Assembly: GCA_026388545.1 (NCBI GenBank)
Contig: JAPLJS010000044.1
Span: 1-60,634 of the forward strand
Direction of reading: 5' to 3'
Length of the DNA stretch: 60,634 bases
DNA from: Deltaproteobacteria bacterium
Lineage (GTDB): Bacteria; Desulfobacterota; Syntrophia; Syntrophales; UBA2185
Below are positions 3,054 to 34,883 of this stretch, piece by piece. The notes under the pieces were generated by a model that was not told the origin of the DNA, did no database searches, and was given only the letters and a program-made list of their open reading frames with translations. The position numbers were made by a program, and so were the translations under genes. The first letter of the stretch is position 1, and each line of letters starts with the position of its first letter.

Positions 3054-3254
3054 ATGCAGAGGGAAACGTACAAAGACTTTGATGCCACGGAACTCTTTTG
3101 CCCCAATTGCAGGAGGGCCGTCCCGGTGAGAAAGAGGCTCCTGCTGATCCTGTCTAATGGCGATAAATATGATTACTCATGCGTATTCTGCGGAACGTCA
3201 GTAGGGGATAAAACGGTCTCACAGAAGGATAATTTCAGGATAGAGATAAAATAA
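3054..3254 (+). CDS. small CxxC zinc-ribbon protein
   Basis: A 66-residue protein directly behind nadE. Two Cys pairs (CPNC near residue 17 and CVFC near residue 43) are spaced like a zinc ribbon; the rest is basic and charged. I do not recognise a named family. Length, an intact frame and tight spacing to nadE support it being a real gene, but function is unknown; a nucleic-acid-binding or protein-binding zinc ribbon is the simplest guess. Confidence 0.7.
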   Translation: MQRETYKDFDATELFCPNCRRAVPVRKRLLLILSNGDKYDYSCVFCGTSVGDKTVSQKDNFRIEIK

Positions 3255-3260
3255 AAGTGA

Positions 3261-3734
3261 TCACCGATTTACCTTTTTCTCCATGGCTTTTTTCAATTTT
3301 TCTCCAAGAGAACCAGTGCCGGACGAAGAGGTATCTTTTTCGCCAACGTCCTTATAAATAAGACTGCTCTTTGCCCCTCCCGATTCCCCTTCCAGATAGT
3401 CTCCAAGAATGCCACGGCTATGAACATCCTCATGACAATACACGCAGAGATTCTCCCAGTTACTCCCGTCCAATGGATTGTTGTTATGGTTGCCGTCCTT
3501 GTGGTGAACGGTCAGCAGGTGCCGTTTCGACTCATCAAACTCCCTCCCGCACCGAGCACAGATAAGATCATAAAGAGCCAATGACCTTTCCCGGTAATCT
3601 TCACCCGGCAGTTTCTGCTGTTCTCTCTTCAGTTCACGGACAACATCTTCAGGAGATTTGCCGTCTTTAGACTTATCCTTGACAGTTATCGTACGGACAC
3701 GCCCCCATTTTTTCCCATACGTAGCCCGGGGCAT
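3261..3734 (-). CDS. YajD-like HNH nuclease
   Basis: HNH-family nuclease of about 157 residues. The zinc/HNH core is visible: CARCGREF, then HHKDGNHNNNP, then NLCVYCHEDVH, giving the two CxxC pairs and the catalytic His/Asn residues. This matches the YajD group of small HNH proteins, whose biological role is not firmly known. An upstream in-frame TTG at 3761 would add nine residues, but a GGAGG motif lies eight bases before the ATG at 3734, so I chose the latter (protein starting MPRATYGKK). The C-terminal tail is charged and low in complexity. It converges on the gene ending at 3254 with only a few bases between. Confidence 0.85.
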   Translation of the reverse strand: MPRATYGKKWGRVRTITVKDKSKDGKSPEDVVRELKREQQKLPGEDYRERSLALYDLICARCGREFDESKRHLLTVHHKDGNHNNNPLDGSNWENLCVYCHEDVHSRGILGDYLEGESGGAKSSLIYKDVGEKDTSSSGTGSLGEKLKKAMEKKVNR

Positions 3735-14941: not shown

Positions 14942-15071
14942 ACTTACGTACCTCCAGGCAGATTTGCTATAGCATTATTGAAAATATTAAAAAAGCTTTT
15001 TTTATCTCAATCGATGTGCTATAAATTAGCATAATAGAGCGGTAAAAAAGGTGATATAGAAACGTAGGATT

Positions 15072-15171
15072 GAGCCTTTTAATTTAATCCTGAGAGATTG
15101 AAAAAGGATATGAAATTAAGACATTTTTCAGCTTTTTAAAGCCTTCTCATCCAGTGGGAAGGCTTTTTTTA
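15072..15171 (+). promoter_or_regulatory. candidate PyrR-dependent transcription attenuator
   Basis: The leader of pyrR contains a stem-loop with paired TTAATTT/AAATTAA (15079-15085 with 15113-15119) and ATCC/GGAT (15087-15090 with 15106-15109) around the loop TGAGAGATTG. This resembles the PyrR binding loop consensus (CC-N-GNGAG). It is followed by an intrinsic terminator, AAAGCCTTC/GAAGGCTTT (15138-15146 with 15158-15166) and a T run to 15170, just ahead of the pyrR start. Together these form the expected binding loop plus terminator of a UMP-responsive attenuator. Confidence 0.65.
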
Positions 15172-15194
15172 TAATTACGGATGTGCAGAGGTGA

Positions 15195-32317: not shown

Positions 32318-33436
32318 CTAAGACACTACCGATCTTTCCAGTAGCAACTCGAAGCAATGAAGCCCTTTGCCGCCCGTCGCATCCTGGCACATAATCCACT
32401 GTCTCAGCTTTTCGATTGCCCGGTTGTTCTCAATTGCTTCACGGCTCATTTCGACACCTTTTCTAAGGCTGTCAGCTTTCCCCGCCGTATAGAGTATCGC
32501 GCCGGCATTCAGGCATGTAAAATCAATACACGCCACATGCTTCTTTCCGGAAAGAACCCGGACGAAGCGCAACGCTTCATCTGCGGGATTGTCGAGTGAG
32601 GCTATCTCATCAAAAGGTATCTGTTTCAGGCCCACATCCTCAGGGTGGAGAGTGTATTCACTCTGCGAATGACGAGTAAATTCAAATACTCCGGTTTCTC
32701 CTGATACGGAAAGCTCGTCCATGCCATACCCCGAATTCGCATCCTTCCCGTATACGACCATTCCTCTTTCATAGCCTATTAACCGCATGACCTCAGCGGC
32801 TTTATGAAGCAATTTCTCCGTATATACACCGCGCAGGCAGAGGGTCGGTCTGCATGGATTGGCAAGAGATGCGGCAATATTCAACGTTGAACCGAAACGT
32901 ATCTGGCTGAGTATTCGGCCGAGGGCTCCCGGATGCACTTTCGGGCTCATGCCGTTGAAAAGTCCTATTCCGGCCTTTTTTATGCTGTCTCCCACAACTT
33001 CCACATCGCATTCAACGTCTATGCCGACAGCTTCCAGAACATCAACAGTACCGCAGCGAGAGGTAATCGCTCTCGCCCCGTGGCGGGCCATGACGACACC
33101 GCACGCGGCGGCAACAACGGCAGCCGCACTGCTGACATTAAACGTCTTCAGCATATCCATTCCTGTCCCCGAATTTTCAAACAGGGCATCCGGCAGATCA
33201 GGCGCCACATGGACTGTATCCAACTCATCAATAGCCGTCCATGCCCCGACGATCTCTTCAACCGTTTCCCCTTTGGCTACAAGTGCGGCCAGGAAAGCGC
33301 CCTGCTGCAGGTCAGGCTGCCGGTTAAGGAGTACCTCCCTGAACATCCAGTATGTTTCATCCCGCGACAAATCCTGCCCCTCGATCAATCTCTGAATCTT
33401 TGTTCCAAAATCCTTTATTCTTGAAGCTTCCATCAT
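32318..33436 (-). CDS. TrpD-family (anthranilate phosphoribosyltransferase-like) glycosyltransferase
   Basis: A 372-residue type II nucleoside phosphorylase-fold protein. PRPP/Mg2+ features of TrpD are kept: SGTGMD (89-94) for GTGGD, KTFNVSS (97-103), the RHGARAITSRCG loop (118-129), DVLEA (132-136) and the acidic pair in MDELS (240-241). By eye, the anthranilate contacts are not: KHGN is RHGA, and the Arg before the FN(L/I)LGPL-type segment is missing (region near 175-192). The substrate is therefore probably not anthranilate. No trp genes are near. It is the second gene of a cobalamin-riboswitch operon. ATGATG at 33436/33433; AGGAGG spacing favours the second ATG. Confidence 0.8.
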   Translation of the reverse strand: MMEASRIKDFGTKIQRLIEGQDLSRDETYWMFREVLLNRQPDLQQGAFLAALVAKGETVEEIVGAWTAIDELDTVHVAPDLPDALFENSGTGMDMLKTFNVSSAAAVVAAACGVVMARHGARAITSRCGTVDVLEAVGIDVECDVEVVGDSIKKAGIGLFNGMSPKVHPGALGRILSQIRFGSTLNIAASLANPCRPTLCLRGVYTEKLLHKAAEVMRLIGYERGMVVYGKDANSGYGMDELSVSGETGVFEFTRHSQSEYTLHPEDVGLKQIPFDEIASLDNPADEALRFVRVLSGKKHVACIDFTCLNAGAILYTAGKADSLRKGVEMSREAIENNRAIEKLRQWIMCQDATGGKGLHCFELLLERSVVS

Positions 33437-33516
33437 ATCCTCCTGAACCTAAATAACTATAGATACCATTTTTATTTTATTTCTCTACCTACACGGAAAC
33501 TGGCGTCAATGTAAAA

Positions 33517-33535
33517 GACAGGCGGGACGCCTGTC
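33517..33535. repeat. short perfect hairpin between dehydrogenase and TrpD-like genes
   Basis: GACAGGCG (33517-33524) and CGCCTGTC (33528-33535) form a perfect 8-base stem with a 3-base loop; a related GGCGGGCGTCTTGTCC follows at 33550-33565. It sits in the 153-base gap inside the operon and looks like a dispersed GC-rich intergenic repeat, not a terminator (no T tract). Confidence 0.5.
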
Positions 33536-33589
33536 CTACCCCTCGGCAGGGCGGGCGTCTTGTCCAACACCGTCGTTAAGACCGCTTGT

Positions 33590-34555
33590 CTATGGATACA
33601 GGAGTATCTTCCTGCACTCCCGTTTTTCCAGCAATTCGAGGGCATGTTCGAGTTCCCACAACGATATCCTGTGAGAAATCATATCAATTACGTCTATTTT
33701 TCCCGTTCCGATATACTCCAGCGCACGTTCACCATGGCGATACGCACATCCGTAGGCGCCTGTAATGGTCTGTTCGAAATAATGGAGCTGATTGAAATCG
33801 ACATTGATGACGGACCTATCGGGGGAAAGTCCTGAAAATACGACAAGCCTCCCGCGCTTGTTGAGATGATTCAGCGCCTGACGGTACGCTTCTTCCGAAC
33901 CTACCGCCACGATACAGACATCAAAGCTCATTTCAGGCGGAGTCAAATATCCGTGCAGAAGGGAGCGCCGTCTTTCATCAGGCTCAATTATAAAGGGTCG
34001 GGCTTTCATTGCAATGGAAGCACGATGGAGAAGAGTGCCTGCCGTACCTCCTCCCCATATTCCTATCGTTTCGTCCGGTGTAATGTCCGCCAGTTCAAGT
34101 GCATTGAGGCAGCATGAGAGCGGCTCGGCAAAAACCGCCTCTTCGTCCGACAGGGTTTCGGGAATTGCAATAAGGCTTTTCTCTGGAGCAACGACGTACT
34201 CCGCAAAACCCCCATGACGGTGGAACCCCATGATCTTCATATCCCTGCACAAATTCTCAGCCCCGGCCCTGCACTGACCGCAGTAACCGCAGCTTGTACC
34301 GGGATAGACGTATACACGCTGACCCATCGAATATTCGGTGACGCCATCGCCCAATCCACATACAGTTCCTAAGACCTCTTCACCCGGAATGCGGGGAAGA
34401 ACAAGATCCCTGTGACCGGCCCGTATTATTTTCAAATCCGTTCTGCAAAGACCGGTAACATTGACATGCAGCAAAACATTGCCTGCAGCGGGCTTGGGAA
34501 CTTCGATTTCAATAATGGCAAAGGAACCTATTTCATTAACCATTACAGCCTTCAT
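33590..34555 (-). CDS. zinc-type medium-chain alcohol dehydrogenase (MDR) with altered catalytic site
   Basis: A 321-residue medium-chain dehydrogenase. The N-terminal half has the catalytic Cys in GLCRTD (Cys37) and the structural-zinc cluster (Cys89, 92, 95, 103). The Rossmann half has GIWGGGTAGTLL and a YPD/IIEPDERR-like acidic strand end consistent with NAD preference. The catalytic GHE motif reads GEE (residues 58-60), so the usual zinc-ligand His is Glu here. It is the first gene behind a cobalamin riboswitch. It could oxidise an alcohol linked to cobamide metabolism or be an isoenzyme of a B12-dependent route; the substrate is unknown. Confidence 0.85.
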   Translation of the reverse strand: MKAVMVNEIGSFAIIEIEVPKPAAGNVLLHVNVTGLCRTDLKIIRAGHRDLVLPRIPGEEVLGTVCGLGDGVTEYSMGQRVYVYPGTSCGYCGQCRAGAENLCRDMKIMGFHRHGGFAEYVVAPEKSLIAIPETLSDEEAVFAEPLSCCLNALELADITPDETIGIWGGGTAGTLLHRASIAMKARPFIIEPDERRRSLLHGYLTPPEMSFDVCIVAVGSEEAYRQALNHLNKRGRLVVFSGLSPDRSVINVDFNQLHYFEQTITGAYGCAYRHGERALEYIGTGKIDVIDMISHRISLWELEHALELLEKRECRKILLYP

Positions 34556-34581
34556 GAATCCTCCTCATCAGGTTAGTAAAT

Positions 34582-34626
34582 AAAAAAAGGGTTCCCGCGG
34601 ATGGAAACCCATCCACAGGAACCCTT
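34582..34626 (-). terminator. intrinsic terminator of the cobalamin riboswitch
   Basis: On the minus strand AAGGGTTCCTGTGGATGG pairs with CCATCCGCGGGAACCCTT across a short loop, followed by a run of T (34588 down to 34582). It lies between the riboswitch aptamer and the dehydrogenase start, so B12 binding should favour termination. Confidence 0.92.
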
Positions 34627-34639
34627 TACCATTAGATTC

Positions 34640-34812
34640 CCCGATATATCCGCCTCAGCAGGTCTTCTGGCTCTCGGATCATCCATCGGGCGGCCGCCTT
34701 CCCATCAGGGTGTTCCCGACAGTGGCGTTTCCTTATTCGCAGCCCATGTCCCCGATTACAGCGGCGGGACCGCCACGGTTTTTCACCGTGTTCCGGAATG
34801 CTGAAGCACTAA
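34640..34812 (-). promoter_or_regulatory. cobalamin (AdoCbl-type) riboswitch
   Basis: The minus strand reads, in order: GGTGAAAAACCGTGG, the GCCGCTGTAATCGGGGAC segment, the conserved core GCCACTG, GGGAAGGCGG, and GATGATCCGAGAGCCAGAAGACCTGC. These are the landmark segments of the cobalamin aptamer in the correct order. A terminator follows before the dehydrogenase gene. Regulation is expected to be OFF when adenosylcobalamin is high. Confidence 0.96.
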
Positions 34813-34856
34813 TATTTAGAGTAACTATTTGAGAACTATGTTTCTTGGCGCATGAC

Positions 34857-34883
34857 CATATAAGAAACGAACAGGTATGTCAA
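34857..34883 (-). promoter_or_regulatory. candidate promoter of the riboswitch operon
   Basis: On the minus strand TTGACA (34883-34878) is followed after 15 bases by TATATG (34862-34857), or after 17 bases by TATGGT. It lies about 45 bases upstream of the aptamer. Confidence 0.5.

Follow-up and report, generated by a model that had tools for sequence, protein, structure and literature searches.

The Locus and Its Leader

The DNA analysed here, referred to below as the window, is a stretch of 60,634 nucleotides from a Deltaproteobacteria bacterium of the Syntrophales (contig JAPLJS010000044.1, assembly GCA_026388545.1), and the subject of this report is a small operon on its minus strand, in which a cobalamin riboswitch and a terminator precede the genes of a medium-chain dehydrogenase (MDR) and, after it, a TrpD-like phosphoribosyltransferase, called TrpDL. 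The aptamer (34640 to 34820, minus strand) matches the cobalamin riboswitch model RF00174 over its full length, positions 1–189, with a cmscan score of 77.9 bits (E 1.7e-17) against a gathering score of 31.5. It is followed by an intrinsic terminator hairpin (34586 to 34627, minus strand) with a 19-bp stem and a T-rich tail, for which the folding energy is −35.3 kcal/mol, with a z of −6.4 against shuffles. An earlier sequence-only reading of this DNA had recognized a B12 aptamer and terminator spanning 34812 to 34582 and had proposed an Infernal search of the leader with RF00174; aptamer and terminator are both real, and the extent of the aptamer itself needed a small correction, to 34820 to 34640. 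The terminator is likely the expression platform, and the B12-bound aptamer would lead to termination. Upstream of the leader lies a sigma-70-like promoter, TTGACA-17-TATGGT (34855 to 34883, minus strand), found by a consensus scan at 10 of 12 positions and therefore a consensus match only.

The first gene (33590 to 34555, minus strand) encodes a predicted zinc- and NAD-type alcohol dehydrogenase of the MDR family, 321 amino acids long (ADH_N, 1.1e-26 in Pfam), and the second (32318 to 33436, minus strand) encodes TrpDL, a class IV phosphoribosyltransferase of 372 amino acids (Glycos_transf_3, 2.2e-50; Glycos_trans_3N, 2.2e-17).

Conservation of the Unit

Relatives of TrpDL were sought in genomes of the window's own phylum, where they are patchily distributed at 38–79% identity: they turned up in 14 of the 155 class genomes, in 13 of 395 sampled across the phylum and in 13 of 85 from a second class; one locus, L026, was the single find of a search over genome contigs. 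A plasmid collection yielded ordinary trpD only (35–37% identity), and no TrpDL relatives were found in viral contigs. Three divergent loci (L035, L071 and L072), which have no riboswitch and in two cases no MDR either, were set aside, and the core set consists of the other 34.

MDR adjoins TrpDL in all 34 core loci, and RF00174 lies directly upstream of the operon in 33 of them, at a median of 76 bp from the first gene. The riboswitch scores over the gathering score in 32 loci; L069, at 28.3 bits (E 7.6e-5), was counted as the 33rd, and in L163 there was no RF00174 even at a lax threshold. The ten loci of the second class, fetched once the pattern was known from the first 24, had MDR in 10 of 10 and the riboswitch in 9 of 10. 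Canonical trpD loci, by comparison, had RF00174 in 0 of 11. Chance placement of the riboswitch, put at about 3e-4 per locus by a crude density model that treats the loci as independent though they are not, was rejected on the 33 of 34 seen and the 0 of 11 controls. The major clades are also congruent between the TrpDL and MDR trees. Since the sequence-only reading held that its cobamide link would fail if the pair were not conserved behind B12 riboswitches elsewhere, this link has come through the comparison intact, and the evidence for it is strong. The module of riboswitch, MDR and TrpDL is real and conserved, and probably new.

The divergent TrpDL subfamily seen in L035 (5203–8522, genome G026) and L071 (4026–7448, genome G180) has neither riboswitch nor MDR, and a molybdopterin oxidoreductase is encoded in both loci; it may represent a second ribosyl-arylamine pathway.

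TrpDL and the Dehydrogenase

TrpDL is homologous to TrpD over its full length, with both Pfam domains and the motifs for phosphoribosyl pyrophosphate (PRPP) and magnesium common to the two, and its top match in the PDB is an anthranilate phosphoribosyltransferase (2.5e-49). The motifs GTGMD (90–94), NVSS (100–103) and MDE (239–241) are kept in TrpDL, and in the family alignment GTGMD, KTFN[VI]S[ST] and GMDE are retained and near invariant, so PRPP and metal binding by TrpDL are likely. The acceptor side is another matter. Anthranilate is bound in TrpD by the Lys of KHGN together with an arginine, Arg159 of TkTrpD, Arg164 of SsTrpD or Arg193 of MtbTrpD (PMC5537072, on the Thermococcus kodakarensis enzyme). 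In TrpDL, KHGN has become RHGA (118–121), and RHG[AS] is found throughout the core family; the position of the arginine is held by Leu176, and by a hydrophobic residue across the whole family. These alignments agree with what the sequence-only reading had said of the retained PRPP motifs, the change of KHGN and the missing Arg. TrpDL further differs from TrpD in having ASLANP in place of GPLTNP (ASLA[NS]P in the family), in a two-residue insertion before the HP motif, and in its partners, which are a cobalamin riboswitch and MDR/CobT rather than a trp operon.

The host genome carries a complete canonical trpEGDCFBA operon elsewhere, whose TrpD is 33% identical to TrpDL, and TrpDL is therefore not the tryptophan enzyme of the host. 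Taken together with the lost anthranilate contacts, this makes TrpDL very probably an enzyme distinct from TrpD that uses another acceptor. It nevertheless scores 251.7 (E 1.1e-74) with the trpD equivalog model TIGR01245, over the curated cut-off of 199, so that automatic annotation would name it as a tryptophan enzyme, a likely misannotation. Identity with TrpD2/YbiB, which the sequence-only reading had raised as something to be checked, was rejected, the YbiB model being only a remote second (1.5e-8; 34 bits against a cut-off of 185). A Pfam scan of the TrpDL protein gave no match to the CobT domain PF02277, CobT being a separate gene.

The dehydrogenase shares ADH_N and ADH_zinc_N with RspB and L-threonine 3-dehydrogenase, and its best NCBIfam matches are PRK10083 and tdh; it falls, however, far under every equivalog cut-off, and its family has conserved GHRDL and HYxE...G(A/S)YG motifs. 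In the alignment, the catalytic Cys and the AEP motif are kept in nearly all members, and the four-Cys structural zinc site is also kept. The zinc-site motif GHE reads GEE (His to Glu) in the clade of the window's MDR, the other clades having GHE.

Linkage and Fusion to CobT

Thirteen of the 34 core loci are linked to CobT, the enzyme that moves a phosphoribosyl group to the base in cobamide synthesis. The gene after TrpDL is cobT in L026, L062, L065, L068 and L070, with CobS, CobD and CbiB following in some of these, and in a further eight loci (L066, L069, L159, L160, L162, L163, L164 and L167) MDR and CobT form a single open reading frame (ORF) of about 710 amino acids. Both domains of the fusion were assigned by Pfam/NCBIfam in L069, L159 and L162, and by BLAST in the remaining five. 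MDR and TrpDL are themselves a single ORF in L030, while CbiR stands beside the pair in L034 and CbiZ in L063. CobT was found in 22 of the 25 genomes that have a TrpDL gene, and the aligned CobT sequences retain the catalytic GEGTGA motif, including its Glu. The suggestion that cobT might be missing where the pair is present thus has to be given up, in view of this count, the five directly adjacent copies and the eight fusions. The link of the operon to CobT is well supported, and the pairwise fusions and co-regulation of MDR, TrpDL and CobT suggest that the three proteins would most likely act on successive intermediates.

Cobamide Genes and Base Supply in the Host

The host genome has five cobalamin riboswitches, and the four besides that of the window precede cobU-cobT-cobS, btuCD, btuB-cbiR-cobQ-cobB-cbiB-cobD and a metH-like gene. 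CbiR, BtuB and CobUTS are thus present and CbiD was not found in the host; its lack points to cobamide import with rebuilding of the nucleotide loop, and the host would probably import cobamides and remodel them in this way. CbiR is a known first step of such remodelling, releasing alpha-ribazole (PMC7733943). Despite the lack of a detectable CbiD, the host keeps CobB, a cobyrinate a,c-diamide synthase, and CobQ (L037, 5588–8610, on contig C108). The metH-like gene (L038, 7746–10465, on contig C80) encodes a B12-dependent protein of 819 amino acids that matches metH positions 1–860 of 1182, and so is without the reactivation domain; it has a cobalamin riboswitch before it, even though the usual effect of B12 on such switches is repression.

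None of the known sources of a lower-ligand base is evident in the host. BluB was over the cut-off in none of 44 genomes, the host included, and a BzaF-like ThiC paralogue was not found in the host, whose single ThiC groups with single-copy ThiCs (58–82%) and is 44% identical to the second copy of G481. Among the 22 core genomes a second, BzaF-like ThiC occurs only in G240 and G481. The best reading of the host is as a cobamide remodeler without a known source of base, base supply being the missing step.

In G240 the BzaF-like ThiC has its own neighbouring CobT and is separate from the locus of TrpDL and the MDR-CobT fusion, an arrangement that suggests a different base for each of the two loci. 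This genome has four CobT genes (L138, L141 and L142): the first is by the BzaF-like ThiC and a methyltransferase-like ORF, another is fused to MDR, a third is by CobC- and CobS-like ORFs and the last stands by itself. The set is a natural system for the comparison of CobT base specificities.

Proposed Role and Alternatives

On balance, the operon is probably a B12-repressed lower-ligand module that makes or prepares a base for CobT, although the catalytic activity, the order of the steps and a lower-ligand base as the product are all inferred. Of the ideas in the sequence-only reading, the making of an unusual lower ligand is the one that now leads. At low cobamide the riboswitch would permit read-through of the terminator, and MDR and TrpDL would be made. 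TrpDL would then move the phosphoribosyl group of PRPP onto an aromatic amine or base without the carboxylate of anthranilate, and the NAD-linked zinc dehydrogenase would oxidise the TrpDL adduct or its precursor. The product would be the base or its direct precursor, to be converted by CobT to the alpha-ribotide used by CobS. In the version of these steps that is preferred here, and that is offered as a guess only, C1' of the added ribose would close an imidazole ring, by analogy with indole-ring closure by ribose carbons in tryptophan synthesis and with the ribityl carbon that BluB uses for dimethylbenzimidazole. The divergent TrpDL of L035, which occurs with TrpC-, TrpF- and RibD_C-like genes, may lend this guess slight colour. 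A more specific proposal, which is tentative and may well prove wrong, is that the operon belongs to a third, O2-independent route to a lower-ligand base, unrelated to those of BluB and BzaF, in which an aromatic amine would be ribosylated from PRPP, an imidazole-type base would be closed or freed by NAD-linked oxidation, and CobT, in many cases fused to the dehydrogenase in one polypeptide, would activate it. The base may be one that so far has no assigned pathway.

Several observations weigh against a base-supply role. The activities of TrpDL and MDR are predicted from sequence, and the operon holds no enzyme to make the acceptor. CobT does not need the pair, as it is present without it in 11 of 19 hand-picked contrast genomes; the host CobT is 84–86% identical to the CobTs of relatives without the pair, and a comparison of CobT sequences gave no visible split between loci with and without it. 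CobT was not found in three genomes with TrpDL, G002, G026 and G132, two of them drafts with 6–7% contamination and G026 a carrier of the non-core subfamily. Lack of BluB and BzaF is frequent throughout the class and so does not mark out the pair-bearing genomes, in which purinyl cobamides could be produced with no base pathway at all. The genomes are, moreover, species representatives, and many are fragmented drafts.

Other explanations of the pair fare less well. That it supplies or recycles the ribosyl donor of CobT, with TrpDL turning PRPP into nicotinate mononucleotide (NaMN) or some other beta-ribotide that carries a good leaving group and MDR preparing that group, is unlikely: TrpD chemistry does turn PRPP into a beta-ribotide, the form that CobT takes as donor, and the linkage and fusion to CobT are compatible with such a role, but the loss of the carboxylate-binding Arg disfavours nicotinate, NaMN is generally known to come from ordinary NAD synthesis, which would make a special supply needless, and the dehydrogenase would have no obvious role. 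Somewhat less likely still is a role in salvage, in which the pair, downstream of CbiR or CbiZ, would process the alpha-ribazole or base freed in cobamide remodelling for reuse. The host, with CbiR and BtuB and without CbiD, would indeed remodel imported cobamides, CbiR releases alpha-ribazole (PMC7733943), and the pair has CbiR as a neighbour in L034 and CbiZ in L063; against this, CbiD is present in 10 of the 22 core genomes, where ring synthesis is thus probably de novo, and the recurrent fusion partner is CobT and not CbiR.

The sequence-only reading had also offered a B12-independent stand-in for a B12-dependent reaction, induced at low cobamide, and isozymes of B12-dependent enzymes are recognised targets of cobalamin riboswitches (PMC3766115). 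With no B12-dependent reaction that fits a PRPP transferase and a dehydrogenase, and with the nucleotide-loop genes cobT, cobS, cobD, cbiB, cbiR and cbiZ as constant partners, by linkage or, for cobT, by fusion, this is very improbable. The same low standing is given to an ordinary anthranilate phosphoribosyltransferase, a duplicate fallen under B12 control, for which the TIGR01245 score speaks; it was rejected on the active-site residues (Leu for the essential anthranilate Arg, RHGA or RHGS for KHGN across the family) and the separate trp operon, and canonical trpD loci have no cobalamin riboswitch. The least credible is that TrpDL replaces CobT and attaches the base from PRPP, with MDR perhaps inverting C1' through a 2'-keto intermediate, a version of the earlier idea that the pair attaches the lower ligand. 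The PRPP motifs are kept and no CobT was detected in either G002 or G132, but CobT is present in 22 of the 25 genomes, directly downstream in five loci and fused to MDR in eight, with its catalytic Glu kept where aligned. TrpD converts alpha-PRPP to a beta-ribotide, and cobamides carry the alpha-ribotide made by CobT, so the product would be the wrong anomer. With CobT present and fused, and this mismatch of anomers, TrpDL is unlikely as the attaching enzyme.

Other Elements

A dispersed palindromic repeat, GACAGGCGTCCCGCCTGTC (33517 to 33535, no strand assigned), lies in the 153-bp gap between the MDR and TrpDL genes. The host genome has 13 exact copies of it and 23 at no more than one mismatch, compared with none of a reversed control pattern; one of 31 other genome matches is within the trp operon (contig C70, 54452), and the repeat is probably unrelated to the function of the operon. 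Elsewhere in the window (15071–15172, plus strand) there is a weak match to the PyrR binding site RF00515, 55.6 bits against 54, which is unexpected here and possibly due to chance. A c-di-GMP-I riboswitch (86.8 bits) near the TrpDL locus of L164, on the opposite strand at 3198–3282, is probably unrelated.

Known Systems and Significance

The nearest precedent is the cobUTSCB-thiC-2 operon of Geobacter, which sits behind a conserved cobalamin-operon leader (PMC2700814). There, likewise, a paralogue from primary metabolism is found with cobT behind a cobalamin riboswitch, in what is a system of the BzaF/BzaABCDE type. The thiC-2 relatives were reportedly later shown to be BzaF. BzaF, however, is a ThiC-type radical SAM enzyme with no sequence relationship to TrpDL and MDR, and most of the pair-bearing genomes lack a second ThiC of the BzaF-like kind. 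The fusion of MDR to CobT is paralleled by BluB/CobT2, a base-making enzyme fused to CobT (PMC4657239), but BluB is oxygen- and flavin-dependent. CobT (PF02277), although fused to or beside the pair, is of another family than TrpDL, uses NaMN as donor and is present in addition to it. The classes named in a 2013 survey of the regulons of cobalamin riboswitches are biosynthesis, transport, cobalt transport and isozymes, with trpD unmentioned in its main text (PMC3766115). In Chlorobium, trpD and a dehydrogenase are listed among the genes of variable regions in which cobalamin genes occur as well (PMC8620254). No published description of TrpD or MDR as a partner of CobT was found in the literature searched, supplements and subscription papers having been outside reach.

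The structure of the lower ligand decides which bacteria use which cobamide, yet its prediction was possible in only 58% of the predicted cobamide producers (PMC6461909). The MDR-CobT fusion is one protein whose assay could reveal what the dehydrogenase contributes, and the conserved module of riboswitch, TrpDL, MDR and CobT, found in anaerobes that have neither BluB nor BzaF, is a concrete candidate, open to test, to explain some of the lower ligands that are as yet unaccounted for.

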